Assembly (NCBI RefSeq): GCF_002802865.1
Contig: NZ_PGLQ01000006.1
Location: 1 to 64,000 of the forward strand
From: Bifidobacterium scaligerum
Lineage (GTDB): Bacteria; Actinomycetota; Actinomycetes; Actinomycetales; Bifidobacteriaceae
Reading direction: 5' to 3'
Length of the DNA: 64,000 bases
Positions 10,290 to 42,998 of the stretch are shown here, piece by piece. Position 1 is the first letter of the stretch, and each line of letters starts with the position of its first letter. The position numbers and the translations under genes were made by a program. The notes under the pieces are model-generated. The model was given only the letters and a program-made list of their open reading frames with translations. It did not search any database and was not told the origin of the DNA.

Positions 10290-10334
10290 CGCGAATATGT
10301 TGCTCTGACCGTCGCTCAGCGCAACATATTCGCG
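10290..10334. repeat. CTGA-N7-TCAG palindrome 1 (array member 1)
   Basis: Arms CGCGAATATGTTGC and GCAACATATTCGCG (14 bp, perfect) flank CTGA, seven bases and TCAG, with one unpaired base between arm and core on each side. Core centre at 10312. Confidence 0.85.
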
Positions 10335-10352
10335 GGGTGGAGGGGAGACGTT

Positions 10353-10395
10353 GAGATTTTGCCGCGCTGAGAGGTGGCCACCGCGGTAAATTCTC
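10353..10395. repeat. CTGA-N7 palindrome, degenerate core (array member 2)
   Basis: Arms GAGATTTTGCCGCG and CGCGGTAAATTCTC match at 12 of 14 positions. The left core CTGA is intact; the right core is CCAC in place of TCAG but at the exact 7-base spacing. Core centre at 10374. Confidence 0.7.
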
Positions 10396-10412
10396 GGGAT
10401 TAGAGGATATTT

Positions 10413-10457
10413 CGAGAATTTACCGCACTGACGCATCCTCAGTGCGGGAAAATCTCG
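10413..10457. repeat. CTGA-N7-TCAG palindrome (array member 3)
   Basis: Arms CGAGAATTTACCGCA and TGCGGGAAAATCTCG match at 13 of 15 positions around CTGA, seven bases and TCAG. Core centre at 10435, 61 bases after member 2. Confidence 0.85.
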
Positions 10458-10472
10458 GGCAAGCCATTTTCT

Positions 10473-10491
10473 TCGAGAAAAACCGCGCTGA
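10473..10491. repeat. half palindrome (array member 4)
   Basis: CGAGAAAAACCGCG followed by CTGA resembles the left half of members 2 and 3. No right arm follows. Its CTGA is spaced 60 bases from that of member 3, continuing the periodicity. Confidence 0.6.
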
Positions 10492-10509
10492 GGTGCTATG
10501 GCGAGGGGC

Positions 10510-10865
10510 TTTGGGCTGGATTGGGTTGGGAAAGGGATGATTTAGGTTGTTTCGGGTTTGGGTTGGGGTGATCCAAGTGGTTTTGGGTTGATTGGAATCG
10601 GATTGGGGTGATCCGAGTTGTATTGGGTTGATTGGAATTGGTTTTGGGTTGGGGAAGGGACGATTTAGGTTGTTTCGGTTTTGGGTTGGGTGTTCGAGGT
10701 GGTTTCGGGTTGATTGGAATCGGATTGGGGTGATCCGAGTTGTATTGGGTTGATTGGAATCGGTTTTGGGTTGATTGGAATTGGTTTTGGGTTGGGAAAG
10801 GGACGATTTAGGTTGTTTCGGTTTCGGGTTGGGTGTTCTAGGCGGTTTTGGGTTGATTGGAATCG
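10510..10865. repeat. G/T-rich long-period repeat
   Basis: About 350 bp almost devoid of C on the plus strand. The phrase GATTTAGGTTGTTTCGG recurs at 10539, 10662 and 10805 (periods 123 and 143), and a shorter 20-bp phrase built on GGGTTGATTGGAAT recurs about six times. Many runs of G3-G4 could form G-quadruplexes. It lies in the 3' flank of the LacI gene, downstream of its stop on the minus strand. Confidence 0.85.
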
Positions 10866-10895
10866 GCCCCGGGCGACCGGTTCATTGCGGCTCGG

Positions 10896-11912
10896 TCAGC
10901 GGATGCGCGATGTGGAGGCGCGGACCGTCAACTGCGCCGGAAGGGTGCGGAACGGTTCGTGAACCGGTTTCCCCTCGATGAGATCAAGCGTCATGTGCGC
11001 GGCGATACGGGCCATGTCCACCGGATTCTGACGGATGGTGGTCAATCCGATGTCGTCGGTGTAGAAACTGTCGTCGTAGCCGATCACCGAAATGTCTTCG
11101 GGCACTGAGAATCCGTTGCGTTCGAGCTGGAATAGCAGCGGCAACGCGATGCCATCCTCCTGGCAGGCGATGGCGGTGGGCATGGTTTCCAAACTCATCA
11201 GCTGGGTGACCACATCGCTGATCTGATAGCGGCCATCCGAATCGACCTTGCAGACGATGACCTGTGGTTCGACGCCTTCCTTGCGGCAGGTGTCCATGAA
11301 CATATCGAATCGCCCTCCCACCGAGAAGCTCAGCGAGACCTCGCGGTCGGTTCGGATGTAGGCGATGTTGCGATGGCCAAGGTTCATCAGGTGACGTGCG
11401 GCCAGCGTGGAGCCCTGATGGTCGTCGATGTTGACGGCCGCCGCGAATCCGTGCTGTTCGGATTCGGCCGTGTTGATGCCGATGATTGGCACGCCCACCG
11501 ACGACAGCTGGGCGATCTCCTTGCTGTCGATGTCGAAAGACACGACGATGACGGCGTCGGCGTTACGGCGTACGGGCAGCATCTCAAAGAAGTTGCGTCG
11601 ATCCTCGATGCTGGAAATCTGGAAAATCGAAATATCGTACCCTTCGGCGTGCAGCACTTCGTTCAAGCCTTCGATCACCGAGGCGGTGAACCACAGTCGG
11701 ATATGGCCGCTCATCAGCACGGCGACGCGCAGCGAACGGCCCGATTTCAGGGCTGCGGCCGAACGGGAGAGCGAGAAGTTAAGTTCGTCGGCAATGGCGA
11801 GCACCCGTTCGCGAGTTTTGGCCGAGACCAAATCCGGTCGGGTGAAGGAGCGGGAGACGGTGGAGATGGAGACGCCTGCCTTCTCGGCGACGTCTTGGAT
11901 GCTCGTAGACAT
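10896..11912 (-). CDS. LacI family transcriptional regulator (importer 1)
   Basis: A 338-residue LacI-type repressor. The N-terminal helix-turn-helix reads SIQDVAEKAGVSISTVSRSF, with the hinge region LSRSAAALKSGRS, followed by a periplasmic-binding-like sugar-sensing domain to the C-terminus. I start at the ATG at 11912, preceded by AGGATC at good spacing; the open frame continues 11 codons upstream without family similarity. It sits between the binding-protein gene and the divergent permease genes. Boxes of the GCAAACGTTTGC type lie before both, so it probably controls all of importer 1; the effector sugar is unknown. Confidence 0.88.
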   Translation of the reverse strand: MSTSIQDVAEKAGVSISTVSRSFTRPDLVSAKTRERVLAIADELNFSLSRSAAALKSGRSLRVAVLMSGHIRLWFTASVIEGLNEVLHAEGYDISIFQISSIEDRRNFFEMLPVRRNADAVIVVSFDIDSKEIAQLSSVGVPIIGINTAESEQHGFAAAVNIDDHQGSTLAARHLMNLGHRNIAYIRTDREVSLSFSVGGRFDMFMDTCRKEGVEPQVIVCKVDSDGRYQISDVVTQLMSLETMPTAIACQEDGIALPLLFQLERNGFSVPEDISVIGYDDSFYTDDIGLTTIRQNPVDMARIAAHMTLDLIEGKPVHEPFRTLPAQLTVRASTSRIR

Positions 11913-12008
11913 GCTGATCCTTTTGTATACCGCGGACGACAACAAGAAAACCTGTGGTTCAGTATACAGGTGCTGCTATGAGACTGTGATGATGACAACG
12001 ATTGTATT

Positions 12009-12020
12009 ACAAACGTTTGC
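12009..12020. promoter_or_regulatory. LacI box, site 3 of importer 1
   Basis: ACAAACGTTTGC contains the 10-bp perfect palindrome CAAACGTTTG, the classical LacI-family operator form. It lies between the divergent LacI and permease genes. Confidence 0.65.
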
Positions 12021-12122
12021 AGAAAGGGATTTGGCGGCGATAAATTACTGAAATAGAGCCGATTTATTGGCAGAAAACGCTGACTGCAATTGATGCTTTG
12101 CGCTGCGTGAAACACGATAAAT

Positions 12123-12159
12123 GACAACGTTTGACATTCCTGTTGCCGGCGTTTACCAT
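12123..12159 (+). promoter_or_regulatory. promoter and overlapping LacI box of importer 1 permeases
   Basis: TTGACA (12131-12136) and TACCAT (12154-12159) are spaced by 17 bp. A LacI-like box (CAACGTTTG) overlaps the -35 element, so repressor binding would directly block RNA polymerase. Confidence 0.6.
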
Positions 12160-12276
12160 GAGCGTAGGCCGAACGAAAACGAGCTTGTGTATCCGGCTCG
12201 CATGGGTGGTTGGCATAGCCGATGTCCGTTACGGCGCACGACGTAGTGCTGCGGACTCAAGGAGGAGGAAAGAGTC

Positions 12277-13131
12277 ATGATCAACATGGCTGGTAAGGCG
12301 ATACGTAGATGGTGGGCGCTGTTCGCGCTGCCGACGTTCGCCGCGTTCATCATAGGTTTTCTGGTGCCGTTCATCATGGGCGTGTACCTGAGCTTCTGCG
12401 AGTTCACCACGGTTACCGACGGCGAATGGGTGGGGCTCAAGAATTACAGCAAAGCGTTGAAGGACAAGGAATTCCTGCATGCGCTCGGCTTCTCCACGGC
12501 CTTCACCATCGTGACCACCATCGTGATCAACGTGGTGGCGTTCGCCATCGCCTACATGCTGACCAAGGCCATCAAAGGCTCCACGCTGTTCCGCTCGGTG
12601 TTCTTCATGCCGAATCTGATCGGCGGCATCATTCTGGGCTACATCTGGCTGTTGCTGTTGAACGGCGTGCTCGCCCATTGGGGCCGCGCCCTGACCTATA
12701 AGGCCTCCTACGGCTTCTGGGGCTTGGTCATTCTGGTGTGCTGGCAGCAGATCGGCTACATGATGATCATCTACATCGCCGGCCTGCAGGCGTTGCCCAC
12801 CGACGTGCTGGAAGCCGCCGCCGTGGATGGCGCCAACGGGCGTCAGACCATGTTCCGCATCATCATCCCGCTGATGATGCCGTCCATCACCGTGTGCTCC
12901 TTCCTGACGGTGACCAACGGTTTCAAGCTGTACGACCAGAACCTCGCATTGACCAACGGCGCCCCGAGCAACATGTCCGAAGGCCTGGCGTTGAACATCA
13001 CCCGCACCTTCTACGGGCGTATGGGATGGGAAGGCGTTGGCCAGGCGAAGGCCGTGCTGTTCTTCATTCTGGTGGCGGTGATCGCGCTGATTCAGAACAA
13101 GCTCACGACAAGCAAGGAGGTGGCAGCCTGA
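12277..13131 (+). CDS. sugar ABC transporter permease, MalF type (importer 1)
   Basis: A 284-residue inner-membrane permease with six predicted helices. The EAA loop near residues 185-205 (LEAAAVDGANGRQTMFRIII) is the contact site for the ATPase. The ribosome binding site AAGGAGGAGG precedes the ATG. Its stop codon overlaps the start of the next permease (TGATG), so the two are translationally coupled. The short N-terminus without the long extra helices of E. coli MalF is usual for CUT1 importers of Gram-positives. Confidence 0.92.
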   Translation: MINMAGKAIRRWWALFALPTFAAFIIGFLVPFIMGVYLSFCEFTTVTDGEWVGLKNYSKALKDKEFLHALGFSTAFTIVTTIVINVVAFAIAYMLTKAIKGSTLFRSVFFMPNLIGGIILGYIWLLLLNGVLAHWGRALTYKASYGFWGLVILVCWQQIGYMMIIYIAGLQALPTDVLEAAAVDGANGRQTMFRIIIPLMMPSITVCSFLTVTNGFKLYDQNLALTNGAPSNMSEGLALNITRTFYGRMGWEGVGQAKAVLFFILVAVIALIQNKLTTSKEVAA

Positions 13132-13973
13132 TGAACGAGAACAAGCCCGTCAAGCATGGTCCGGTGTGGACCGCGCTGTTTACCGTCGTTTCTCTCTTCT
13201 GGATTTTCCCGATTGTTTTGGTGGTAATCAACTCCTTCAAGCAGAAGGCGTATATCTCCAAGAACGCGTTCTCCCTGCCCGCCGGCAAGGCGTTCGTGGG
13301 ATTGGAGAACTACACGCGAGGTGTTGAGACCACGCAGTTCTTCGCGTCCTTCGGTTGGACGTTGCTGATCACCGTAGGCTCGGTGGCGCTGATTCTGGTG
13401 TGCACCTCGATGTGCGCATGGTGGATCGTGCGCGTGAACAACTGGGCGGCCAAGCTGCTCTACACGTTGTTCCTGTTCAACATGATTGTGCCGTTCCAGA
13501 TGGTGATGTTCACGCTTTCCAAGATCGCCGATATGCTGAAGCTCAACACCCCGTGGGGCCTGTGCATCGTGTACCTCGGCTTCGGTGCCGGTTTGGCCGT
13601 GTTCATCTTCACTGGCGTGATCAAAGGCATCCCCGCCGAACTGGAGGAAGCGGCCATGATCGATGGCGCGTCCGTGCCTCGCATCTTCTTCCAGATCGTA
13701 GTGCCGATTATGAAGCCGTCGATTGTGTCGGTGGCCATTCTCGAAGCCATGTGGATCTGGAACGACTACCTGCTGCCGTATCTGACTCTCGACCTCGGCA
13801 AATACAAGACCATCTCGGTCGCCGTGCAGTACCTGAAAGGCGGCTACGGCTCAGTGGATATGGGTGCCATGATGGCCTGCCTAGTTCTGGCGATCATCCC
13901 CATCATCGTCTTCTACCTCGTATGCCAAAAGTACATCGTGAGCGGTGTTATGGCTGGAGCCGTTAAGGGATGA
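13131..13973 (+). CDS. sugar ABC transporter permease, MalG type (importer 1)
   Basis: A 280-residue permease partner with six helices and an EAA loop near residues 170-195 (LEEAAMIDGASVPRIFFQIV). It ends in the GAVKG typical of MalG-type subunits. AAGGAGG lies 10 bases before the ATG at 13131, which overlaps the upstream stop. The last codons form one arm of the hairpin that follows the gene. Confidence 0.92.
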   Translation: MNENKPVKHGPVWTALFTVVSLFWIFPIVLVVINSFKQKAYISKNAFSLPAGKAFVGLENYTRGVETTQFFASFGWTLLITVGSVALILVCTSMCAWWIVRVNNWAAKLLYTLFLFNMIVPFQMVMFTLSKIADMLKLNTPWGLCIVYLGFGAGLAVFIFTGVIKGIPAELEEAAMIDGASVPRIFFQIVVPIMKPSIVSVAILEAMWIWNDYLLPYLTLDLGKYKTISVAVQYLKGGYGSVDMGAMMACLVLAIIPIIVFYLVCQKYIVSGVMAGAVKG

Positions 13974-13995
13974 TGACTGGTGTCATCATCCCTTA
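13964..13995 (+). terminator. stop-codon-spanning hairpin
   Basis: TAAGGGATGATGAC and GTCATCATCCCTTA form a perfect 14-bp stem with a four-base loop; the left arm contains the stop codon of the permease gene. There is no U-tract. The outer bases GGCTGGAGCC (inside the gene) and GGCTCCAGCC (14022-14031) also pair, across a 26-bp inserted hairpin. Confidence 0.65.
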
Positions 13996-14021
13996 GGGGA
14001 AAGTCCAGTGGACTTTCCCCA
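13996..14021. repeat. small hairpin inserted in inverted gene-end copy
   Basis: GGGGAAAGTCC and GGACTTTCCCC flank a short AGT loop, nested inside the larger inverted repeat that mirrors the 3' end of the permease gene. Confidence 0.65.
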
Positions 14022-14059
14022 GGCTCCAGCCTGAGCGAGGTGATAGCCGAGCGAAGGTA

Positions 14060-14101
14060 TGTCTGGGTCTGGCTCGTAGAGCCGGTCCGTAATTGCAGGG
14101 C
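14060..14101. repeat. 42-bp direct repeat, copy 1
   Basis: Begins TGTCTGGGTCTGGCTCG and ends AATTGCAGGGC; identical over 42 bp to the copy at 14204. It contains a small hairpin GGCTC-GTA-GAGCC. The two copies are 144 bp apart, and the sequences before each are also similar in design. Confidence 0.9.
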
Positions 14102-14105
14102 TGGG

Positions 14106-14173
14106 GCCGTTAAGGGTTAACGGCCAGCGCCGTTAACCCTTGGCTGGAAGCCCGGTGGGCTTCCAGCAGGTTT
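14106..14173. repeat. second structured module (nested hairpins)
   Basis: GGGTTAACGGC and GCCGTTAACCC pair around CAGC, and GGAAGCCC pairs with GGGCTTCC just after. The order (large hairpin, small hairpin, 42-bp repeat) mirrors the module at 13964-14101. Confidence 0.6.
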
Positions 14174-14203
14174 CAGGCTGAGACGCGGCAGCGTCGAGGC
14201 TGA

Positions 14204-14245
14204 TGTCTGGGTCTGGCTCGTAGAGCCGGTCCGTAATTGCAGGGC
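14204..14245. repeat. 42-bp direct repeat, copy 2
   Basis: Exact copy of 14060-14101, 144 bp downstream in the same orientation. Confidence 0.9.
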
Positions 14246-14300
14246 CGGAGGCGGAGCTGTAAAGGGTTAGCGGCTGAGCTGTAGCAGTCATCGTCTAGAC

Positions 14301-14333
14301 AAACGTACGTTGACCACAACTCAGCGTACGTTT
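14301..14333. repeat. CTGA-N7-TCAG palindrome, pair 2 first
   Basis: Arms AAACGTACG and CGTACGTTT (perfect) flank TTGA, seven bases and TCAG. Core centre 14317. Confidence 0.8.
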
Positions 14334-14358
14334 TTCCAGAGCAAATCACCCCTGTTCC

Positions 14359-14399
14359 GGGAAAACGTACGCTGAGTGGCCGTCAGCGTACGTTTTCCC
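14359..14399. repeat. CTGA-N7-TCAG palindrome, pair 2 second
   Basis: Arms GGGAAAACGTACG and CGTACGTTTTCCC (13 bp, perfect) flank CTGA, seven bases and TCAG. Core centre 14379, 62 bases after its partner; the arms share the ACGTACG motif with it. Confidence 0.85.
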
Positions 14400-14442
14400 A
14401 GATAACAGCAGATAACAGGAGCGGAAAGTAAGGGAGAGGAGC

Positions 14443-15069
14443 GTGATTTCCGTGAACTGGCTGGCACCTGACTCCAAATTCATGCGTGCGTGGGGCAATC
14501 TGGTGGACGGCGTGCTGATCAATCTCCTGATGCTGGTCACATCGCTGCCGATCATCACTATCGGCGCGGCGATCACGGCCGGTCACGATGCCTGCCGTCG
14601 GTCCGAAGAGGGTGAGGGCCGTGGCGTCGTCGCCAACTATTGCAAGGCGTTCAAGGTCAATTTCGTTCAGTCCACGATGCTGTGGCTGCCGTTTCTTGCA
14701 GCGCTCATCGGGCTGGTCTACGCGTGGGTCGTCTTGCAGATCACGCCGTTGCTCATTCCGAAATTCGCGTTGAGCATACTCTGGATTATCGGCTTTGAAT
14801 GGGTGTTCGCGCTTCAGGCGCGCTTTGAGAACACAGTGGTCGGCACGCTGAAGAACGCCTTTATCTTCGGTATCTCCCATATTGTTGCAACGATCGCGTT
14901 AGTGGCGGTGGATGCCGTGTTCGTGGCACTGGTGATCGGCTGCTGGTTCTATATGCCGTCGGGACTGTTCTTCCTGGTGGTCCTCGGCTACGGCACCATG
15001 TTGATGCTCCACATCCCCGTCACCGAGCGTGTGTTCCGGCCTTATCTCGCTGTTCCCTCATCGTTGTGA
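14443..15069 (+). CDS. DUF624 (YesL-type) membrane protein
   Basis: A 208-residue protein with about five transmembrane helices. The start ISVNWLAPDSKFMRAWGN and the segment NLLMLVTSLPIITIGAAITA match DUF624 (YesL), a family repeatedly found beside CUT1 sugar importers in Firmicutes and Actinobacteria. Its role is unknown; an accessory or regulatory partner of the importer is a common guess. The start is a GTG preceded by GGGAGAGGAG. It is 470 bp downstream of the permeases, beyond the structured repeats, so it may have its own promoter. Confidence 0.85.
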   Translation: MISVNWLAPDSKFMRAWGNLVDGVLINLLMLVTSLPIITIGAAITAGHDACRRSEEGEGRGVVANYCKAFKVNFVQSTMLWLPFLAALIGLVYAWVVLQITPLLIPKFALSILWIIGFEWVFALQARFENTVVGTLKNAFIFGISHIVATIALVAVDAVFVALVIGCWFYMPSGLFFLVVLGYGTMLMLHIPVTERVFRPYLAVPSSL

Positions 15070-15100
15070 CCCCAAGTTCCCCGGTTCCCGAATCCCCCGG

Positions 15101-15149
15101 TTCCCGAATATGTACCACTGAGTCGACGTCAGTGGTACATATTCGGGAA
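15101..15149. repeat. CTGA-N7-TCAG palindrome, pair 3 first
   Basis: Arms TTCCCGAATATGTACCA and TGGTACATATTCGGGAA (17 bp, perfect) flank CTGA, seven bases and TCAG. Core centre 15125. It lies between the convergent DUF624 and ABC exporter genes. Confidence 0.9.
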
Positions 15150-15202
15150 AGAGAGAGCTCCGACCTTCTAAGGACGAACTTCCAGGAAGGGAGATCTTCC
15201 CT

Positions 15203-15248
15203 CCCGAATATGTGCCGCTGAGCCGGCGTCAGTGGTACATATTCGGGA
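15203..15248. repeat. CTGA-N7-TCAG palindrome, pair 3 second
   Basis: Arms CCCGAATATGTGCCG and TGGTACATATTCGGG, with two differences, flank CTGA, seven bases and TCAG. Core centre 15225, 100 bases after its partner. Confidence 0.88.
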
Positions 15249-15293
15249 AAAGGGGGAAATCAGTGTTGCAAGGGTGCGCTTGCCGCTCGCCGC

Positions 15294-17189
15294 TCATGAC
15301 TGCATGGTCTTGAGCTGGTAGAACTTGCCGCGCGCGGCCATAAGCTCGTCGTACGTGCCTTCTTCGACGGCTTGGCCGTGTTCCATCACCACAATGCGGT
15401 CCGCGTTGCGGATCGTAGATAGGCGGTGCGCCACCATGAACGTCGTGCACTGGCCCATCATGTGATCGATGGCGTCCTGCACCTTGCGCTCGGACGCCGA
15501 ATCAAGCGCGCTCGTCGCCTCATCGAAGATGATGATGCGCGGGTGACGAATCAGCGCTCGCGCAATCGCGATTCGTTGCCGCTGGCCGCCCGAAAGCGTG
15601 CCGCCATGCTCGCCAAGCTGGGTATCCAAGCCGTTCGGCAGCTCGGCGACCACATCGTCAAGCCCCACCTCGCGCACGACCCGTTCGACCTCGGAGTCAT
15701 CCACATCGCCGAGTCCGTAGATGATATTGTCGCGCAACGTGCCCGAGAACAGAATCGTATTCTGCGGCACCACCGCGATCTGCCGACGATAGGCGTCGAG
15801 ATCCATCTCCTTCAAATCGATGCCGTCCACCAGCACCGACCCGGCCTCAGGTACACCGAATCCGATCAGCAGCTTGAGCAGTGTTGACTTGCCGGATCCG
15901 GAATCACCCACGAACGCAAGCGACTGGCCGGCCGGCACGTGCAGCGAAAAGTCGTGCAGCACTCTCGGATATTCCGGACTGTACCGAAAGTCCACGTGGC
16001 GGAACTCCACGTCGCCGCGCAGTCGCTCCGGCTCCACGTCACGCGTGTTGCGCTCCACATCATCGGCCTGCAGAATCTCGCCGATCGACGACACCGATTC
16101 CATGCCTTTGGTGAGCACCGGGTACAGGTTGATCAGCGACGAAATGGAGTTGACGATCTGCGCGAAATACGTTTGGAACAGCACCACATCGCCGATCTGG
16201 ATATGTCCGTTCAGCGCGAGATATGACGTGAATGCAAGGCAGCCGAGCTGAAACACCTGGAAGATCACCCAGCCCGTCGAGCCGAACAACGCATTGACGA
16301 CGTCAAGGCGGAGACCGGTGTCGTGAATATAGTTGAGCCGTTTGCTCATATGGTCGATCTCGACGTGCTGCAGTCCATGTGCGCGGGTGACCGGGATCAT
16401 TTCAATCATCTCGGCGACGGCCGCCTGCGTCTGTTCCATCTGCGAGCGGAAATCATGGTTCGACTCGCGAATCGGTCTGCGGAAGCAGTAGATCGCGATC
16501 ACCGTCGTCGGTACGGTGAGCACGAAGAACAGCAGCACGGTCGGACTGTGCAGCGCGGTGACGACAACCGCGATGGTGATGTCCAGCGCGATAATCGGGA
16601 AACTGCGATAGGTCTGGTCGATCAGTACCTCGACGTTTTCGACGTCGCGCATCACCTTGGACAACAGTCGTCCGGATTGCGTCTCGTTATGGAAACGAAT
16701 CGACAACTGCTGCAGTTTGACGATAAGGCTGCCACGCAGCTTGCGCTCGATATTGCGGTTGATGCGGCCGAACTGCAGCGCTACGGTCCACGTGCTTAAC
16801 ACGTTTTGCAGGATGAATATGAGCGCGACGGCGAGGTTGATCCACAGCTCACTCAAGTTGTGCTGGTCGCGGTACGTGATGATGTTGATGATGTTGCTGG
16901 TGGCGATCGGCAGCACCCAGCACGGTGACTGCTTGGCGATCAGCGCAAGGGTGGAGATGGTGAGCTGTTTGCCGGAGCCGCGGAAAAAGCTCAGCAGGAT
17001 GTGGACGGGATGCCCGGCGTTCTTGCGATAGGTATTGATGTATTCGGTGAACGACCATGGGGTGTCCGGCGGTACAGAATCGGTCCAATTCTGGTCGTCG
17101 CTGACGTGCGGCTTACGATCGTCGGCTGTGGATGAGGCGGTGTTGGACATATCGTCGTTGATGGTGTGCTTGATGGTCGGTTTTGACAT
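15294..17189 (-). CDS. ABC exporter, fused membrane and ATPase domains
   Basis: A 631-residue half-transporter of the MsbA/Sav1866 type. Six helices occupy about residues 60-350, followed by one nucleotide-binding domain. The domain has a complete active set: Walker A GDSGSGKST near 435, signature TLSGGQRQR near 540, Walker B IIIFDEATSALD near 560 with the catalytic Glu, and H-loop VAHRLSTI near 595. All motifs are canonical, so it should work as a homodimer. GAGGAGAG precedes the ATG at 17189. It stands alone between convergent and divergent neighbours; the substrate is unknown. The beta-mannosidase gene starts divergently 188 bp away. Confidence 0.88.
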   Translation of the reverse strand: MSKPTIKHTINDDMSNTASSTADDRKPHVSDDQNWTDSVPPDTPWSFTEYINTYRKNAGHPVHILLSFFRGSGKQLTISTLALIAKQSPCWVLPIATSNIINIITYRDQHNLSELWINLAVALIFILQNVLSTWTVALQFGRINRNIERKLRGSLIVKLQQLSIRFHNETQSGRLLSKVMRDVENVEVLIDQTYRSFPIIALDITIAVVVTALHSPTVLLFFVLTVPTTVIAIYCFRRPIRESNHDFRSQMEQTQAAVAEMIEMIPVTRAHGLQHVEIDHMSKRLNYIHDTGLRLDVVNALFGSTGWVIFQVFQLGCLAFTSYLALNGHIQIGDVVLFQTYFAQIVNSISSLINLYPVLTKGMESVSSIGEILQADDVERNTRDVEPERLRGDVEFRHVDFRYSPEYPRVLHDFSLHVPAGQSLAFVGDSGSGKSTLLKLLIGFGVPEAGSVLVDGIDLKEMDLDAYRRQIAVVPQNTILFSGTLRDNIIYGLGDVDDSEVERVVREVGLDDVVAELPNGLDTQLGEHGGTLSGGQRQRIAIARALIRHPRIIIFDEATSALDSASERKVQDAIDHMMGQCTTFMVAHRLSTIRNADRIVVMEHGQAVEEGTYDELMAARGKFYQLKTMQS

Positions 17190-17319: not shown

Positions 17320-17377
17320 ATATTGGCGGTGCAGGTTTTCGGCCCACCCCTATGGAACATGCGATAAGGAAGTCACC

Positions 17378-24528: not shown

Positions 24529-24570
24529 CAATTGTTCCGGACGGGTCGGTTGCCAGTAGCTAAACGGTGA

Positions 24571-26046
24571 TCACTTCTTGGCTTGGGTGAGCTGGTAGGC
24601 CACGAAGAGGATGGCGAGCCAGATCACGCCGGCGATCACAGCGATACGGTAGCTGGCGGAGAAGCACATCAGCACAACGACCAAAGCCAAGAACGCGAGC
24701 ACCACCCACGGGGTCACCTTGGCGAACGGCAGCTTGAAGTGAATCGCATCCAGCGCCGCCTGACCGGACTTACCGGACAGCTCGGTATCTTCCGGAGCGC
24801 CGCCCGCGGCAACCACCTTGCGGAACTTCATCTCGGTGAACATAATCATCGTCCAGTTGATGATGCCGGCGATCGTGGCGATCGACATCAGATAGTTGAA
24901 CGCGAACTGCGGCCACACGAACACCACGACCACGGCAATCGCCGTAATCACAGCGGAAGTCAATACGCCGGCGACCGGCACACCCTTCGAGTTCAGGCGA
25001 CCCAAGTATGCGGGCGCGTTGCCCTGCTTGGCCAGCGAGTACAGCATGCGGGAGTTGGCGTACAGGCCGGAGTTGTAGACGCTCATCACGGCGGTCAGGC
25101 ACACGAAGTTCAGAATGCCGGCGGCTGCGTGAATGCCCACGGAATCGAAGATCTGCACGAACGGGCTCGACTGGCCATCGATGGTGTTCCACGGCACCAC
25201 GGCCATGATCACGCCCAGAGCGCCGATGTAGAAGACGAGGATTCGCCAGATGATGTCGTTGGTGGCGCGCGGAATCGTGGTGCGCGGGTCTTCGGTCTCA
25301 CCGGCGGTGATGCCGATGAGCTCGGTGCCGCCGAAGCTGAACATCACCACGACCAGAGCCATCAAGAGGCCGGTCCAGGAGCCGTCGGAAGCCTGACCCA
25401 TCAGACCGTTCGGGAAGAAGCCGTCGCCTACAGTGAACCAGTTGGCGAAGCTTGCCTTGATACCGGAAGCGGTAGGCAGGGCGAAGATGATCACCGCAAG
25501 ACCGCCCAAGATCATGGCGATCACGGCCACGATCTTGATGATCGCGAACCAGAATTCGAATTCACCGAACTTGGAGACGCCGAGCAGGTTCGCGGCGGTA
25601 ATCAAAACCAGGAACACAGCCGCCGAAACCCAAGTGGGGATGGCCGGGAACCAGTAGTTCACGAAGCTGCCCACCACGGCGAGCTCCACCATGGAAACCA
25701 GAATGTAGTTGAACCAATAGTTCCAGCCGGAGATGAAACCGGCGCGCTTGGACCAGTACCGGGTGGCGTAGTAGCTGAATGCGCCGGCTTTCGGATCCTC
25801 CACGGACATTTCGGACAATGCACGCACGATCATGAAGATCGCAAGGCCGCCGATCAGGTAGGCCAGCAGAATGGACGGACCGGCCAGCGCGATGGATTCG
25901 CTGGAGCCGTAGAACAGACCCGTGCCGATGGCGCCGCCGAGGGCGATCAGCTGGATATGACGATTTTTCAGGGATTTGCGCAGCGTTGCCGGCACCGGCA
26001 CGTCGTCGGTTTCGCGCGGCTTCTTGGACGCGTCAGTCTTGCTCAT
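24571..26046 (-). CDS. amino acid permease, APC/AAT family
   Basis: A 491-residue permease of the amino acid transporter (AAT) branch with twelve helices. The start KSLKNRHIQLIALGGAIGTGLFYGSS is diagnostic of the GabP/LysP/AroP group, and the FSFGGTELIGITAGETEDP segment near residue 235 is the substrate-loop signature. Likely a proton-coupled importer for amino acids such as Lys, Gln, Asn or GABA. It is monocistronic, with a start ATG at 26046. Confidence 0.88.
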   Translation of the reverse strand: MSKTDASKKPRETDDVPVPATLRKSLKNRHIQLIALGGAIGTGLFYGSSESIALAGPSILLAYLIGGLAIFMIVRALSEMSVEDPKAGAFSYYATRYWSKRAGFISGWNYWFNYILVSMVELAVVGSFVNYWFPAIPTWVSAAVFLVLITAANLLGVSKFGEFEFWFAIIKIVAVIAMILGGLAVIIFALPTASGIKASFANWFTVGDGFFPNGLMGQASDGSWTGLLMALVVVMFSFGGTELIGITAGETEDPRTTIPRATNDIIWRILVFYIGALGVIMAVVPWNTIDGQSSPFVQIFDSVGIHAAAGILNFVCLTAVMSVYNSGLYANSRMLYSLAKQGNAPAYLGRLNSKGVPVAGVLTSAVITAIAVVVVFVWPQFAFNYLMSIATIAGIINWTMIMFTEMKFRKVVAAGGAPEDTELSGKSGQAALDAIHFKLPFAKVTPWVVLAFLALVVVLMCFSASYRIAVIAGVIWLAILFVAYQLTQAKK

Positions 26047-26238
26047 GACTTCTCTCTCGATTCTCGCGTGCGCTCGATCGTGAGCCGATCAAACGCGGGA
26101 CTTGCCGCACGGCCTTCCGTTCGTCGGCCGCGCGCAATGTCCGCCATTGTATGCCCTGATGATGTCAGACATCGCGTTTTCGCTCGGTATGCATCGCCTG
26201 TTGAGATGGCATGAGGATGATTGTTGTACGTTCCGCGT

Positions 26239-27345
26239 TCAGCGCGGCCGGCGTGCGCGGGCGTCGGGCAGCGCCGGGAAGCTGCCGTGCGGCTCGTTCT
26301 GGTACCAATACGCAACCGAAGCGACGTCGTCCTGACGTTCGAAAGCGCCGCACGCCGCCGAGCCGATCTGCTGCACAGTGACGGTGAGCCGCTCGCGGAA
26401 CACGATCGGATCGGGGATGTGCCAACGGTAGAGGCCACGCTGCGGCGGAGTGACGTCGTCATGGTAATCGCTGTGGATCAGCGGATCGTGCTGCGAGTAA
26501 TACGGGTACCCCAGAAACTCCGTGCTGTAGCACTGTTCGACAGTGCGGCCATGCTCCTGCCGGGCGAAACTCCATGCACCGCCGAAATAATCCTCGGTGC
26601 CGGTGCTGCAGATGGTGGGGTAGTCGGTGTCCGAATCGATGTAGAACTTGAACTCGCCTTCGCCCCACCAGTATCGTTCGAGTGTGGTCAGCGCCAGGTA
26701 AGTGCCGACGTAATGACCGGAGCCGCGCACGCCGTCGAGCACGACATAGTCCTGCGCAGGCTGGGTGATGGGTTGACGTCGCCACTGTGCGTGGAAGGTG
26801 AGCAGGTCGTCGGCCGCGCCGGTCAGTGAAGCGACGTCGTCATACAGACGGTAATCGATCTGATAGAACAGGTCCTTGATGGGATTGGCGTGCTGGTTTT
26901 CCACCGTGATGCGGGCGTGACGGCGGAACGGCATCGGCCAATAGCAGTTCATGCCGCGTGACGGCAACGCCACCACCGGACCAGACGTGACGACTGCCGC
27001 ACGACCGAATCCGCAACAGAAGAAATCACCCAGTGGACATTCCACACTCGGCTCGGTCTCTCCATCCCAGTACATGCGCAGCACCAGATCGCGCAGCACA
27101 TAGCAGTCGGCGTCCGTGGTTTTCTCATCCACGGTGAACCAGATATGGGTGATCTGGCCCGGTCCGTCGATATCGGCGAGAGTCACCGTTGCGCCGGGCG
27201 CGATGTTGCGCAGACACGGCGACCCTTTGCGCGACGGGCCGAGCGCGCTTGCCGCCATGGCGGCTTTGCCGGGCTCGCCGTTCGGATTCTCGGCGTTGAT
27301 CGCGCGCGAAACAAACGGCTGGGTATGGGTCAATGATGCAAACAT
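26239..27345 (-). CDS. DUF2961 protein, glycoside hydrolase family 172
   Basis: A 368-residue protein matching DUF2961, now GH172. Characterised members act on alpha-D-fructofuranosides (difructose dianhydride I synthase/hydrolase of B. dentium) or on alpha-D-arabinofuranosides. The start SRAINAENPNGEPGKAAM, the GEGEFKFYIDSD segment (Glu 229 and 231) and STGTEDYFGGAW (Glu 251) carry the acidic residues expected at the active site, and LYRWHIPDPIVF is the family's C-terminal signature. There is no signal peptide, so it is intracellular. It follows the LacI gene with a 70-bp gap and shares the strand with the alpha-mannosidase. Confidence 0.88.
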   Translation of the reverse strand: MFASLTHTQPFVSRAINAENPNGEPGKAAMAASALGPSRKGSPCLRNIAPGATVTLADIDGPGQITHIWFTVDEKTTDADCYVLRDLVLRMYWDGETEPSVECPLGDFFCCGFGRAAVVTSGPVVALPSRGMNCYWPMPFRRHARITVENQHANPIKDLFYQIDYRLYDDVASLTGAADDLLTFHAQWRRQPITQPAQDYVVLDGVRGSGHYVGTYLALTTLERYWWGEGEFKFYIDSDTDYPTICSTGTEDYFGGAWSFARQEHGRTVEQCYSTEFLGYPYYSQHDPLIHSDYHDDVTPPQRGLYRWHIPDPIVFRERLTVTVQQIGSAACGAFERQDDVASVAYWYQNEPHGSFPALPDARARRPR

Positions 27346-34565: not shown

Positions 34566-34567
34566 TC

Positions 34568-37080: not shown

Positions 37081-37112
37081 GCCGATAACGGCGGTTTAGC
37101 CGTTCATATTCT

Positions 37113-37369: not shown

Positions 37370-37405
37370 CCGTCGTCCGAAACGTCCGAAACGTCCGAAA
37401 CGTAC
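37370..37405. repeat. 9-bp tandem repeat before ABC ATPase gene
   Basis: ACGTCCGAA occurs three times in a row (with a fourth related copy CGTCGTCCGAA upstream), ending just before the ribosome binding site of the gene at 37418. Confidence 0.75.
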
Positions 37406-37417
37406 AAGGGGTGTGCG

Positions 37418-38119
37418 ATGGCGTATATCGAATTCGATCATGTGGTCAAGGAGTATGCGTCCGGTTCCGCGGCGATTCGGGCGCTGGATGAGGCGAGCTT
37501 CACCGCCGATCAGGGCGAGTTGACGGTGATCCTAGGCCAATCGGGCGCAGGCAAGACCACGGCGCTGAACATTCTGGGCGGCATGGATACCGCCACGTCC
37601 GGTCGCGTGGTGGTCGGCGGTCGCGATATCACCGGGCTGAGCCGCCGCGAACTCATCGCATACCGTCGTACCGACATCGGTTTCGTATTCCAGTTCTACA
37701 ATCTCGTGCCGAATCTGACCGCGCTGGAAAACGTGGAATTGGCCAGCCAGATCTGCCCGGATCACTTCGATCCGGCTGAGACGTTGCGCAAGGTCGGGCT
37801 GGGGGAAAGACTCGATAATTTCCCTGCGCAACTTTCCGGCGGCGAGCAGCAGCGCGTCTCCATCGCCCGCGCCATCGCCAAGAAACCGAAGCTGCTGCTG
37901 TGCGATGAGCCGACTGGCGCGCTCGACTACGAGACCGGCAAGGAAGTGTTGCAGTTGCTGCAGGATATCTGCCAGACGCAGGGCATGACCGTCCTGATCA
38001 TCACGCACAATTCCGCGCTCGCGCCAATGGCGCACAAGGTGATCCGATTCCGGTCCGGCAGGGTGGTGGGCGAAGAAATCAACGCTCAGCCCACACCGAT
38101 TGCGGATATCGAGTGGTGA
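37418..38119 (+). CDS. ABC transporter ATPase, MacB/LolD type
   Basis: A 233-residue ATPase with Walker [10 protein letters not shown] near 39-47, signature [14 protein letters not shown] near 145, Walker [13 protein letters not shown] near 165 and H-loop [18 protein letters not shown] is characteristic of the type-VII (MacB, LolD, FtsE, BceA) group. The start ATG at 37418 follows AAGGGG. Its stop codon is directly ahead of the large FtsX-type permease gene, so the two form a two-gene export or mechanotransmission system. The cargo (antimicrobial peptide, lipid or none) is not readable. Confidence 0.9.
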
Positions 38120-38123
38120 GGCG

Positions 38124-38195
38124 GTGAAATACATCGTGAAACACCCCGTGAAACGAAATCGCACGGTGAAATACCATGTGAAACAATCCGTGAAA
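38124..38195 (+). repeat. 12-bp GTGAAA tandem repeat at permease start
   Basis: Six units beginning GTGAAA, five of 12 bp and one of 18 bp, all in the same frame as the permease (VKYI, VKHP, VKRNRT, VKYH, VKQS, VKHR). Each GTG is a possible start codon. Confidence 0.8.
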
Positions 38196-41015
38196 CATCG
38201 CCACGGCTTCGGCATGTCAGGCGCGTTCGCCAAGGACATGTTGCGCATGTGGGCGCGCAACTGGAAGCGATTCGCCTCGATCGCTATCATCACCATGCTG
38301 GGCGTGGCGGTGCTTACCGGCATTTATGCCGGCTGCCGTGATATGTTCCGCGGTGCCGACCGGTTTCTCGACAGCCAACGGCTTTACGACATCCAGATCG
38401 TCTCCACGCTTGGCCTCACCGATGACGACGTCGCCGCGCTCAAGGCCGTCAATGGCGTCGAACGGGTGCAAACGGAACGCTCCGCCGCCGCGACCGTCAT
38501 CGTGAACGGCAGCAATGAGTCGGTGACGTTGACCGAAATCGGTACGAACGGCATGAACCAGCCGTATCTGCAGGAAGGCAGACTGCCGGTCAAGTCCGGG
38601 GAAGTGGCCGTCACCAAAAAATTCGTGCGGGACAGCGGACTTATGATCGGCGATCGGCTGAACGTTGCGCTTGGCAAGGTTGCGGCATCCGCTTCGTCCG
38701 AAAAGGACAAGTCAGATGATGCGACGGCGTCGGGCGACGCCGGCAACGAGTCGTCGGGCGACGACTCGACTCCGACTTTCCCCACCGATCTCACCATCAC
38801 CGGCATCGTGCTGGACCCGCTCGACCTGCAGAATCCGGAAGGATACTCGGCGGGCGCGTTCCGCAGCTCAGCCACCACCGACTACACGTTCTTCCTGCCG
38901 TCCGATGGCGTAAGCGGCACCGTCTACACTGCCATATCGCTGGAAGTCGAGGGTGCCTCCGCACTCGACACCTTTACCGACCGGTATGACGACGTCGTCC
39001 GCGCGGTCCGCGAACGTATCGAAACCACAATCCAAGCCAAGCGGCAACAGGCCCGCCGGCAGCAGCTTATCGACGAGGCGAACCAGCGCATCGCGGACGC
39101 CCGCGCCAAAGCCGACCGGCAGATCGCCGAGGCCCAAGCCGAACTGGACAAGCAGGCAGCCTCGGTGGAATCCAGCATCCCACAGGCCCGTTGGTATGTG
39201 AACACCAGGTCCACGGCCGGCACGTTCTCGTCGCTGGAATCCGATCTCAACTCCATCGAATCGATCGGTCGCGCGTTTCCCGTGGTGTTCCTGCTGGTCG
39301 CCGTGCTGATGAGCCTGACCACGATGACCCGCATGGTCGAAGAGGATCGCGGACTGATCGGCACATACATGGGGCTCGGTTACGGCAACGCGCTGATCGC
39401 CTCGCGATACGTGCTGTTCGCGCTGCTCGCCTGTCTGATCGGCGGCGGATTGGGTGATCTCATCGGCTTCCTGGGCATTCCGGCGTTTCTGCTCGTCGTG
39501 TTGGAAGGCATGTATGTGGTGCCGGGCGTCACATTGCTCTACGACTGGGCGTACGGTTCGGTCGGCGTGCTGCTGTTCGTGGTGGGCGTCGCGGTGGCGA
39601 CCATCGTGGCATGCCGCGGCGAGGTGCGGCATATGCCGGCCGAACTGATGCGGCCCAAGTCACCGAAATCCGGTTCGCGCGTGCTGCTGGAACGCATCGG
39701 GCCGCTGTGGCGGCGCATGAAATTCCTCAACAAGGTCACCGCGCGCAACCTGTTCCGCTTTAAGGGCCGCCTGTTCATGACGGTCGGTGGCGTGGCCGGC
39801 TGCACCGCGCTGATCGTGTGCGGACTGGCCATCAACGATACGGTGGATGCGCTGCCGGTGACGCAATATCAGGACGTGTATCGGTACGACCTGATGGTCG
39901 TGACCGATCACGACGCCTTGAGCCCGGTGCGCTCGCGGCTATTGGAGAACAACGCAATCAATGACTCGACCGCGCCGGCCGCCGGTGCCTTGACGCTTGC
40001 GCGCGTGGAAAGCGGGGAAATCACTACGATTGCCGATTCCGGCGGTGCTGGCGAATCCGAAACCGTGCAGCTGATCACGGTGCCGTACGCCGATCAGTTG
40101 ACGAACATCGCCGACTTCCGTTCGTCGGTGGACGGTACGACGATTCGTACGGACCTGCTGGATCGTGCGGGTCGTGCGGATGCGGAGTCGTCCGGCGTCA
40201 TCGTTGCGCAAAGCGCGGCGAATGCGCTGGGTATTGAGGCCGGCGACACGGTGACGCTGGAGAACGGCGACGCTGCGCGCGAAACGGTCCGCGTGTACGC
40301 CGTCAGCCGGTCCGTAATCGGTGCGGATGTGTATATGACGTCCGAGTATTACCGGGAAGCATTCGGCGGGGGAGCTGAGGGTTCCGGTTCGACCGACGAA
40401 TCCGATAGTGATGGCAGCGGTGCTGGCAGTGCGTCCAACTCACGTGACTATACGGCGACTGAAGTCAATGGCGTGGAAATGAACGCGATATTCGCGCGAT
40501 TCGTCGGCTCGGATGACGATCAGATCGCCTATGCGGACCGGCTCGCCGAGGAACAGGACGTGTTGAGCGTGACGAGTACGGCGGATATGCGTCGCCGGTT
40601 CAGCTTCGATCTGATGGGTGCGGTGGTGGCGCTGATCGTCGCGCTCGCCGGTGCGCTGGCATTGGTGGTGCTGTTCACGCTCGCCAATACGAACGTCTCC
40701 GAGCGTGTACGCGAGATGGCCACGCTCAAGGTGTTGGGTTTCTTCGATCGTGAAGTGCATACGTATGTGAACCGCGAGATGTTGATCTTGACGTTGATGG
40801 GCATCGCCGTGGGACTGCCGCTCGGCCGTTGGATTGGCGGACTGCTGACGGCTGCGCTGAATATGCCGGGGCTGTATTTCGCGGTGACCGTGCGGTGGTA
40901 CAGCTATGCGATCGCCGCTGCCGTAACGCTGGCGTTCGCGCTGTTGGTGCAGTTGCTTACCAATCCGGTGCTTGATCGAATCGACCCGGTGTCGTCGCTG
41001 AAAAGCGTGGAATAA
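38124..41015 (+). CDS. FtsX-type ABC permease
   Basis: A long permease (about 963 residues from the GTG at 38124) with two FtsX-like halves. One helix near residue 55 is followed by a large extracytoplasmic domain, with an Ala/Gln/Arg coiled coil near 300-350 (IADARAKADRQIAEAQAEL). Helices run near 385-520, and a second extracytoplasmic domain with three final helices follows near 820-955. The start is uncertain. The candidates are the GTG at 38124, coupled to the ATPase stop at 38119, and the ATG at 38214, which would remove a VKxx repeat region encoded by 12-bp units. The latter fits the family's usual N-terminus better, but the former keeps translational coupling. Confidence 0.8.
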   Translation: MKYIVKHPVKRNRTVKYHVKQSVKHRHGFGMSGAFAKDMLRMWARNWKRFASIAIITMLGVAVLTGIYAGCRDMFRGADRFLDSQRLYDIQIVSTLGLTDDDVAALKAVNGVERVQTERSAAATVIVNGSNESVTLTEIGTNGMNQPYLQEGRLPVKSGEVAVTKKFVRDSGLMIGDRLNVALGKVAASASSEKDKSDDATASGDAGNESSGDDSTPTFPTDLTITGIVLDPLDLQNPEGYSAGAFRSSATTDYTFFLPSDGVSGTVYTAISLEVEGASALDTFTDRYDDVVRAVRERIETTIQAKRQQARRQQLIDEANQRIADARAKADRQIAEAQAELDKQAASVESSIPQARWYVNTRSTAGTFSSLESDLNSIESIGRAFPVVFLLVAVLMSLTTMTRMVEEDRGLIGTYMGLGYGNALIASRYVLFALLACLIGGGLGDLIGFLGIPAFLLVVLEGMYVVPGVTLLYDWAYGSVGVLLFVVGVAVATIVACRGEVRHMPAELMRPKSPKSGSRVLLERIGPLWRRMKFLNKVTARNLFRFKGRLFMTVGGVAGCTALIVCGLAINDTVDALPVTQYQDVYRYDLMVVTDHDALSPVRSRLLENNAINDSTAPAAGALTLARVESGEITTIADSGGAGESETVQLITVPYADQLTNIADFRSSVDGTTIRTDLLDRAGRADAESSGVIVAQSAANALGIEAGDTVTLENGDAARETVRVYAVSRSVIGADVYMTSEYYREAFGGGAEGSGSTDESDSDGSGAGSASNSRDYTATEVNGVEMNAIFARFVGSDDDQIAYADRLAEEQDVLSVTSTADMRRRFSFDLMGAVVALIVALAGALALVVLFTLANTNVSERVREMATLKVLGFFDREVHTYVNREMLILTLMGIAVGLPLGRWIGGLLTAALNMPGLYFAVTVRWYSYAIAAAVTLAFALLVQLLTNPVLDRIDPVSSLKSVE

Positions 41016-41061
41016 CGGGTGTGTGGCGATTGCCATATATCGAAACTGACTATTATCCACG

Positions 41062-41096
41062 AAAAGTTCAATTACCTCTGTCGAAATTGAACTTTT
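41062..41096 (+). terminator. terminator of FtsX system
   Basis: AAAAGTTCAATT and AATTGAACTTTT form a 12-bp stem with an 11-base loop and a trailing T run, 46 bp after the permease stop. Confidence 0.8.
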
Positions 41097-41204
41097 TGGC
41101 GAAATAATCACCGTATCATCACATTATATGACTGAATCGGCCGGTCGTTAGCGTAGGTGCCGATGATACAGTTTGAACCTGTTACGGAAAGAGCAGGTGA
41201 GTTG

Positions 41205-42713
41205 ATGAGCGAGAGTCATAACAGCGGTCAGGCGAACAGCGCCTTGACATCCGTCGAGCATCTCGACAAAGACAACGAAATGGCACGCGGACTGAACAAT
41301 CGTCATGTGCAGTTCATTGCCATCGGCGGCACCATCGGCACCGGTCTGTTCCTGGGATCCGGCAAGTCCATTTCCCTGACCGGTCCGAGCATCGTGTTCG
41401 TGTACATCGCGGTGGGCATCATCATGTTCCTGCTGATGCGCGCGATCGGCGAACTGATGTACCGCGATCCGAGCCAGCACACGTTCATCAACTTCATCAC
41501 CCGGTATCTGGGCAACGGGTGGGGGCATTTCGCCGGATGGTCGTACTGGATCGTGCTGGTGCTGATCGGCATGAGCGAGATCACAGCCGTGTCCACGTAT
41601 TTCATCACGTTCTTCGACACGTTTGGCATGGATCTTTCGCACTGGAAATGGCTGATCGAGCTGTGTTTCCTAGCCGCGTTGGTGACTATTAACCTGATTG
41701 CCGTCAAAGCGTTCGGCGAGGCGGAATTCTGGTTCTCGATGATCAAGATCACGCTGATCTGCGCGATGATCGCCACCGCTGTGGTCATGGTGGTGATCGG
41801 CTACCATTACAACGCCGTGCAGATCACCGGTCAGGATGGCGTCTCGCCGGCCGGCCACGCGGGGCTCGACAACATCACCAATAATTTCTCCATCGCGCCG
41901 AACGGGTGGCTGGCGTTCCTGATGAGCTTCCAGATGGTGTTCTATGCCTACGAAATGATCGAGTTCGTGGGCGTCACCGTCTCCGAAACGCAGAACCCGA
42001 GGAAGGTGCTGCCGAAAGCCGTGAACGAGATCATCGTGCGCGTGCTCATCTTCTACGTGGGCGCTTTGCTGGCCATTATGGCCATCGTGCCGTGGACCAC
42101 GTTCAAGCCGAACAAGGACGGCTCCTTTGCCTCCCCGTTCATCATGGTGTTCCAGTATGCCGGCCTGAACTGGGCTGCGGCGCTGGTGTTCTTCGTGGTG
42201 ATCACCGCCGCGTCCTCCGCCCTGAATTCACTGCTGTACTCGGCCGGCCGTCATCTCTACCAGCTGGCCGCGGACTCCGAATCGCCTACCTTCCAGAAGA
42301 TCGGTGTGGTGTCCAAACGTCAGGTGCCGGCACGCGCGATTCTCGTCTCCGCGGCGCTGATTCTGCTTTCCCCGGTGGTCAATGCGATTCCGGGCGTTTC
42401 CGGCGCGTTTGTGCTGTTCGCCTCCGCGTCGTCCGCGGTGATCATCTTCATCTACACGCTGACGATGATCGCGCACCGCAAGTACCGTCGTTCCGCCGAC
42501 TTCATTCCCGACGGATTCGTGATGCCGGCCTGGCGCGTGACCAATACCATCGCCATCGCGTTCTTCGTATTCGTGTACTGCACGCTGTTTTTGGCGGATG
42601 ATACGCGCGGCTCGGCCATCGCCGGTCTGGTTTGGCTGGTGGTGTTCGGCGGCTACTGCGCGCTGCGCGAGCACTATCGCAGCCGCGATCTGAAGGAAGC
42701 GTTGGGCCGGTAG
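41205..42713 (+). CDS. amino acid permease, APC/AAT family
   Basis: A 502-residue permease with twelve helices; LNNRHVQFIAIGGTIGTGLFLGSG is the diagnostic AAT start, and the FYAYEMIEFVGVTVSETQNP loop follows near residue 260. It resembles D-Ser/D-Ala/Gly (CycA) or Phe-type permeases, but I cannot assign a substrate. I start at the ATG at 41205, preceded by AGGTGAG; upstream in-frame starts at 41157 have no support. It is monocistronic. Confidence 0.88.
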   Translation: MSESHNSGQANSALTSVEHLDKDNEMARGLNNRHVQFIAIGGTIGTGLFLGSGKSISLTGPSIVFVYIAVGIIMFLLMRAIGELMYRDPSQHTFINFITRYLGNGWGHFAGWSYWIVLVLIGMSEITAVSTYFITFFDTFGMDLSHWKWLIELCFLAALVTINLIAVKAFGEAEFWFSMIKITLICAMIATAVVMVVIGYHYNAVQITGQDGVSPAGHAGLDNITNNFSIAPNGWLAFLMSFQMVFYAYEMIEFVGVTVSETQNPRKVLPKAVNEIIVRVLIFYVGALLAIMAIVPWTTFKPNKDGSFASPFIMVFQYAGLNWAAALVFFVVITAASSALNSLLYSAGRHLYQLAADSESPTFQKIGVVSKRQVPARAILVSAALILLSPVVNAIPGVSGAFVLFASASSAVIIFIYTLTMIAHRKYRRSADFIPDGFVMPAWRVTNTIAIAFFVFVYCTLFLADDTRGSAIAGLVWLVVFGGYCALREHYRSRDLKEALGR

Positions 42714-42858
42714 CGCTGAAGAAGGGTTGATCCCCGGGCGATTTGGGCGGCTGCCCAGTGGGATTGACCGGCTCGCGGTGAGGTTGCGCGATTTCCGGTG
42801 GATCTAGGAGCCGTTGATCGGTGAGCCGTACCGTTTCGCTCTTCCTCGCGCTCTCTTT

Positions 42859-42905
42859 TTGCGAATATGTACCACTGAGTTGACGTCAGTGGTACATATT
42901 CGCAA
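42859..42905. repeat. CTGA-N7-TCAG palindrome, pair 4 first
   Basis: Arms TTGCGAATATGTACCA and TGGTACATATTCGCAA (16 bp, perfect) flank CTGA, seven bases and TCAG. Core centre 42882. Confidence 0.9.
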
Positions 42906-42953
42906 TGGTTCATAAAGATTGAATCTTGGCTTCTTCGAACGTAGGTCCCTCCC

Positions 42954-42998
42954 CGCGAATTTGTACCGCTGAGATGGACTCAGTGGTACAAATTCGCG
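42954..42998. repeat. CTGA-N7-TCAG palindrome, pair 4 second
   Basis: Arms CGCGAATTTGTACCG and TGGTACAAATTCGCG (14 of 15) flank CTGA, seven bases and TCAG. Core centre 42976, 94 bases after its partner. Confidence 0.88.

Follow-up and report, generated by a model that had tools for sequence, protein, structure and literature searches.

Intergenic palindromes of Bifidobacterium scaligerum belong to a dispersed repeat family linked to a gene for a nuclease-like protein

Why should the intergenic regions of a bifidobacterial genome carry series of palindromes with a fixed core and a fixed spacing? The question is raised by a 64,000-nucleotide stretch of Bifidobacterium scaligerum DNA (hereafter, the window), in which an earlier note had described eight palindromes with a CTGA-N7-TCAG core, together with a ninth, degraded member. 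All eight were located at the centres given there, and the ninth is real, lying 62 and 61 bp from its two neighbours. The features of the window are the following:

10293..10331, no strand: palindrome with GAATATGTTGC arms and centre CCGTCGC, first member of the 10.3-kb array
10355..10393, no strand: degraded palindrome of the 10.3-kb array, 62 bp past the first member
10416..10454, no strand: palindrome with GAATTTACCGC arms and centre CGCATCC, 61 bp past the degraded member
10378..10431, no strand: 54-bp tandem-array unit CCACCGCGG...TTC-N22-GAA...CACTGA, between two 7-nt centres
10477..10491, plus strand: terminal half-site GAAAAACCGCGCTGA at the end of the 10.3-kb array, from direct reading and the pattern of array ends
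14298..14336, no strand: palindrome of the CGTAC family, centre CCACAAC
14360..14398, no strand: palindrome of the CGTAC family, centre GTGGCCG, 62 bp past the palindrome at 14298..14336
15106..15144, no strand: palindrome of the ATGTACC family, centre GTCGACG, between convergent genes
15206..15244, no strand: palindrome of the ATGTACC family, centre GCCGGCG, 100 bp past the palindrome at 15106..15144
42863..42901, no strand: palindrome of the ATGTACC family, centre GTTGACG, identical to the centre at the orthologous B. olomucense site
42957..42995, no strand: palindrome with GAATTTGTACC arms and centre GATGGAC, 94 bp past the palindrome at 42863..42901

When at least 9 of 12 flanking pairs were required and spacers of 3 to 13 were compared, a spacer of 7 gave eight sites in the window and each of the other spacers none. 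The excess over shuffled sequence is very large, since 300 dinucleotide shuffles of the window contained a mean of 0.007 CTGA-N7-TCAG palindromes and never more than 1. A scan of the window plus 20 stretches of the same genome, picked around pattern hits, revealed 78 strong palindromes of any kind, 29 of them with the shared core (24 read as CTGA-7-TCAG and 5 as TGAG-5-CTCA), and no second recurring core among the 78. The window also contains a 19-bp palindromic sequence, TCGGATTGGGGTGATCCGA, present twice right after the 10.3-kb array (10598-10616 and 10720-10738, 122 bp apart), and two nearby imperfect palindromes of another type, with CTGTTTTGCGGTTTTGTACC and GTGGGACGAAACCGTA arms (49574-49711).

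At the genome level, the motif RCTGA-N7-TCAGY occurs 52 times, against 9 for the reversed pattern, and the longer GAA-N8-RCTGA-N7-TCAGY-N8-TTC, with one mismatch allowed, at 55 sites against 0. This GAA pattern was found at least three times in 20 of 112 Bifidobacterium genomes, most of the genomes having none or one, and reached its highest count, 65 sites, in B. olomucense. Other species with the repeat include B. colobi, B. felsineum, B. cebidarum, B. rousetti, B. ramosum, B. reuteri, B. saguini and B. miconisargentati, and the seven-base spacing is kept outside the source species as well. The window palindromes are part of a dispersed DNA repeat family in bifidobacteria. The reversed control YGACT-N7-AGTCR is itself common in a few species (G010, G047, G048, G016 and G037, with as many as 59 copies), suggesting that there are sister families of palindromes built on a different core, perhaps for other paralogs of the protein described below.

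Across 189 elements from five genomes, the half-site consensus is YTTCGNGAA-W3-N4-C-R-CTGA-S, with a hypervariable 7-nt centre whose two ends are mostly G or C. Neighbouring elements lie exactly 61 bp apart in 57 cases in these genomes, and the arrays are made of one to four 54-bp units, TCAGYG...TTC-N22-GAA...CRCTGA, linked by the 7-nt centres (126 such units were counted, and 3 with the reversed control). At the array ends, the last TCAG or CTGA is often decayed, and the CGTAC family is laid out as half-full-half. Arm families such as ATGTACC, ACCGC, CGTAC, CTTGC, TTGGAC, AAGCC and TTTCTCTC are mostly specific to a species or a species group. The idea that the arms are specific to each locus has to be restricted accordingly: the inner arms belong to a few families with the fixed grammar GAA-W3-N4-C-R-CTGA, and it is the outer arms, outside GAA, that differ between loci in some families. 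These outer arms pair even where they differ, which counts against simple copying of a fixed unit.

The two arms are nearly independent at the R position (0.58 the same, 0.52 expected), whereas deviations from the family consensus are matched on the opposite arm in excess of shuffles (50 compared with 34.6; maximum in 1000 shuffles, 46), indicating that half-site identity is kept together with some extra pairing. This extra pairing could come from a function as hairpin or cruciform, or from template switching during the repair of imperfect palindromes. Outer-arm pairs have changed on both sides, from G-C to A-T, at two loci compared between B. scaligerum and B. olomucense (L017 with L094, and L027 with L190). 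At one locus (L022 with L127) the arms are altered in concert with the centre retained, which is a lead only, and within one array, adjacent 7-nt centres can be the same or reverse complements despite differing spacers (L199, L204, L178, L192, L228). The centre was considered as a target-site duplication, with the 54-bp units as MITEs, given that some adjacent centres are identical; however, the unit ends and the flanks of the CGTAC family show no duplication, and this possibility was rejected. A CRISPR array was also discarded, as the 61-bp period is found only in genome-scattered arrays of one to four units, and the arms differ among the units of one array.

Regarding their genomic position, the repeats are intergenic and mostly downstream of genes, with a bias towards 3′ ends. 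Groups of elements were found 41 times between convergent genes, 50 times between tandem genes and 7 times between divergent genes, while the background of gaps above 100 bp comprised 74, 163 and 66 of these classes, respectively, so that divergent regions are avoided (7/98 groups against 66/303 gaps). Five element groups were inside frames predicted by a crude gene finder, and four lay at the edge of a stretch. Such a location at the 3′ ends of genes, together with the long paired stems and the compensatory outer-arm changes, would fit 3′-end hairpins or terminators kept for transcript stability, any linked gene being a passenger. However, the mismatches in the sense strand of the neighbouring gene are symmetric (52 G-T and 51 A-C), giving no sign of selection on RNA; the palindromes are flanked 5′ by the T tract and 3′ by the A tract, which are not the sides expected of a terminator; and the repeats occur patchily within the genus. 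An Rfam search gave only tRNA matches, none at the palindromes, and a scan for intrinsic terminators did not rise above shuffles, with no hit at the palindrome sites. A host function in RNA, which would moreover leave unexplained why the arms follow the paralogs of a nuclease (see below), seems highly improbable. The structured RNA that had been proposed among other possibilities is not favoured either, in view of the symmetric mismatches, the missing Rfam match, the side of the tracts and the near independence of R between arms.

Comparison of orthologous sites shows that the repeats come and go. A 70-bp B. colobi palindrome of the TTTCTCTC family, located between two convergent genes, is absent along with its 13-bp outer arms from three relatives, with no target duplication at the empty sites. 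A second convergent site is occupied by the TTTCTCTC family in B. colobi, by TTGGAC in B. felsineum and by CTTGC in B. cebidarum and in genome G071, while other species have nothing there, or a hairpin that is not related. Next to purE, so named from its protein sequence, the arrangement in B. cebidarum is array-gene-array, and in B. colobi and B. olomucense the arrays stand without the gene. These empty and differently occupied sites show turnover. Neither a target-site duplication nor a defined insertion end was found at the empty sites, at the ends of the CGTAC family or in the alignment of a B. olomucense locus (L181) with the window; this last comparison, tried for the insertion boundary of an autonomous copy, was uninformative, as the region is rearranged. 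The same two sequences share a stretch of 99% identity (window 24567-26503 and L181:6765-8701) among adjoining stretches of 84-94%, suggesting recent transfer or recombination. At three differently occupied sites (L379, L380 and L382, orthologs of L200), the array extends exactly up to a target TCAGYG close to the end of the neighbouring gene, possibly a target preference; this target resembles the TCAG core of the repeat itself.

Repeats of such a lifestyle, dispersed, intergenic and paired, recall the classical REP/REPIN elements moved by RAYT, a Y1 HUH transposase. The REP-like character noted earlier holds as a matter of behaviour (dispersion, intergenic location, 3′-end bias, local arrays and a dedicated flanking gene), but not as dependence on a RAYT. 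The Y1 transposase domain (Y1_Tnp, PF01797) is absent from the B. scaligerum genome and was detected in 7 of 112 Bifidobacterium genomes, including only 1 of the 20 with at least three elements, being absent from the other 19. In addition, no GTAG or CGTC tetranucleotide tag appears at the hairpin foot in the column composition of the 189 elements. A REP moved by RAYT is ruled out for the source genome, barring a RAYT in an assembly gap, and as a general explanation it can practically be set aside.

A candidate for a dedicated partner emerged when all the proteins encoded near elements were clustered without any prior guess: a single family recurs at non-orthologous loci, where it sits between sets of elements. 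The protein, of about 317 aa, gave no significant Pfam or NCBIfam match and no credible match among solved structures. Its N-terminal and middle parts are weakly similar to AbiEi (PADLOC E-values down to 1.7e-8 for some members, and a Pfam AbiEi_1 match with E 0.004), the AbiEi scores being below curated cut-offs, and single weak matches were obtained to AbiEi_1, AbiEi_4 and DUF559 (one DUF559 match, E 0.022). The C-terminal part has the invariant residues NGGES...RVD..W...G.....E.DG..KY (conserved positions E250, D252 and K256 in the B. olomucense protein L181), from which we infer a PD-(D/E)XK nuclease domain similar to DUF559 and Vsr; the whole protein would then combine an AbiEi-like DNA-binding part with a PD-(D/E)XK-like nuclease domain. 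It evolves under purifying selection (dN 0.02-0.19 against dS 0.27-1.7). The palindromes enclose this gene alone, with no AbiEii toxin partner at the loci examined. No relative was found in annotated phages and none was confirmed in viral contigs, and the plasmid matches are one Collinsella record with 30% identity, lacking shared flanking palindromes, and one partial Tsukamurella match.

The linkage of this gene with the repeats is observed in several ways. Among the 38 genes scoring at least 360 bits, 31 are flanked by palindromes, often within 400 bp, and each gene has its own half-site consensus; the other 7 have no such palindromes nearby. In the 112 genomes, with cut-offs of at least 400 bits for the gene and at least three elements per genome, 18 have both, 2 elements only, 4 the gene only and 88 neither (p=4.5e-15, an optimistic value, as the species are related and shared ancestry is ignored). 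Three of the four gene-only genomes do have flanking palindromes, starting with GGA (G005), TAC (G004) or GAC (G053), and were scored as lacking elements because the GAA pattern misses such starts. Distances between the proteins correlate with those between their arms (Mantel r=0.31, p=5e-5, likewise optimistic for ignoring shared ancestry), and close protein relatives have common arms across species (L232/L294, L295/L297, L312/L315, L175/L299 and the CGTAC clade). In B. olomucense, the paralogs L181, L189 and L175 are of the ATGTACC, CGTAC and ACCGC arm types, respectively. Of all 24 possible assignments, the dispersed half-sites located away from the genes fit best when assigned to the gene-flanking types of the genome in which they lie (1.78 mismatches of 8; 2.61 in the second-best assignment). 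The evidence from flanking, from protein and arm distances and from dispersed matches also holds between paralogs within one genome. The protein-bound site suggested before gains indirect support, through a co-inherited protein that may bind and cut DNA.

A third, unseen mobile element could also be imagined, with the palindromes and the gene as its cargo or targets and their linkage as mere hitchhiking; no insertion ends or duplications tie movement to the nuclease-like gene. However, the clustering revealed no further protein family shared by elements at non-orthologous loci, and the linkage is specific for the arm type and appears again outside the genus with unrelated palindromes, which makes such a passenger role very unlikely.

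The most probable explanation, to which we assign a probability of about two in three, is that the palindromes are the recognition sites and the non-autonomous dispersed copies of a selfish nuclease-encoding module, whose binding, cutting and mobilisation are inferred. The autonomous form would consist of the nuclease gene with one or more palindromes at each side. A dimer would read, through its AbiEi-like part, two identical half-sites GAA-W3-N4-C-R-CTGA across the 7-nt centre, and the nuclease part would cut in or near the centre of the palindromes or of similar targets. Repair after cutting would spread the palindromes, and sometimes the gene, to intergenic regions at the 3′ ends of genes. 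Each paralog would read its own W3/N4 code, so that a genome is expected to show one arm family per current or past paralog. Some arm families of B. scaligerum and B. olomucense (TGACTC, GTCTC) have no matching gene. In B. scaligerum, the only high-scoring copy of the gene has an internal TGA, so the palindromes of the window are probably orphans of lost or dead genes. Neither the window nor loci L059-L171 contain a relative of the protein. The same genome has further, more distant paralogs (G000:C16:364337-365395, C11:79029, C17:99170 and C16:559046, one of them in two pieces), and the two examined, those of C11 and C17, have no flanking palindromes.

Alternatively, the AbiEi-like protein could be an autorepressor and the palindromes its operators and decoys; it would bind them without moving them, and their spread would be due to drift, recombination or local duplication. 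Antitoxins of the AbiEi type are autoregulatory and bind to inverted repeats arranged in pairs (PMC3985639), and the proximity of palindromes to the gene would agree with this. Yet operators would hardly be expected mostly at gene 3′ ends, with divergent promoter regions avoided. Moreover, the same sites are occupied by families that are specific to a species and that its relatives lack, and the invariant nuclease-like motif would be unneeded. A regulatory or titrating role is in consequence unlikely, although the least unlikely of the alternatives.

The selfish nuclease module may extend well beyond bifidobacteria. In a phylum-wide sample of 397 genomes, its protein family was found in 42. 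Four genes outside Bifidobacterium (L358, L362, L365 and L370) are bracketed by matching long palindromes of unrelated sequence, and in two of these other genomes the palindrome is dispersed in 15 and 8 copies, all exactly 52 bp long with an 8-nt variable centre, the search pattern having permitted lengths of 42-69. A more general proposal, for which we see even odds, is that Actinomycetota harbour phylum-wide selfish elements driven not by a transposase but by a DNA-binding nuclease of the AbiEi type, which would multiply its own palindromic recognition site, hypervariable in the 7 or 8 nt of its centre; a new arm code would evolve in each paralog and rewrite the palindromes of the genome.

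For dispersed palindromes in bacteria, the main explanation at present is a RAYT transposase, and no enzyme is known for some families, such as the CGTC REPs, which are dispersed palindromes with a CGTC tag and short fixed loops and with no known dedicated gene (PMC3733652). If the proposal were true, a second, unrelated enzyme family paired with its own palindromes would mean that such repeats evolved more than once, and would offer a concrete class of enzymes to seek near orphan repeats. The candidate protein is possibly a new site-specific nuclease and, because each paralog has its own arm code, the family would form a natural series from which to learn how sequence is read by an uncharacterised DNA-binding protein. 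Why bifidobacterial species differ in their species-specific intergenic palindromes also becomes a testable question.

No account of repeats of this kind in bifidobacteria, or of AbiEi/DUF559 proteins associated with repeats, turned up in a search confined to open-access papers. Several known systems offer partial parallels. Like MITEs, the bifidobacterial repeats could be small non-autonomous copies related to the ends of an autonomous element, but target-site duplications were not found, the ends are undefined and the presumed enzyme is not a DDE transposase. Free-standing homing endonucleases are selfish nuclease genes that spread by cutting and repair, and the present module would do the same; the bifidobacterial case differs in that the recognition palindrome, found at either side of the gene, is itself multiplied across tens of sites. 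The type IV antitoxin AbiEi shares weak sequence similarity and a known binding to inverted repeats, whereas the bifidobacterial protein has an extra C-terminal nuclease-like part, no AbiEii between the palindromes, and sites multiplied genome-wide. The CGTC-tagged REPs are also dispersed palindromes without a RAYT of their own, but the bifidobacterial repeats have a candidate gene and no tag. The closest likeness is with REP/REPIN-RAYT: short, dispersed intergenic palindromes in pairs or arrays, an enzyme gene flanked by its own palindrome type, and several enzyme and repeat types per genome. The differences lie in the candidate enzyme, AbiEi-like and PD-(D/E)XK-like instead of HUH Y1, and in the symmetric half-sites, the hypervariable 7- or 8-nt centre, the lack of a GTAG tag and the 61-bp array period. 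With another enzyme and no tag, the bifidobacterial repeat-gene system is best read as a functional analogue of REP-RAYT and not as a member of it, and appears to represent a novel type of selfish repeat system with an enzyme unlike known RAYTs.
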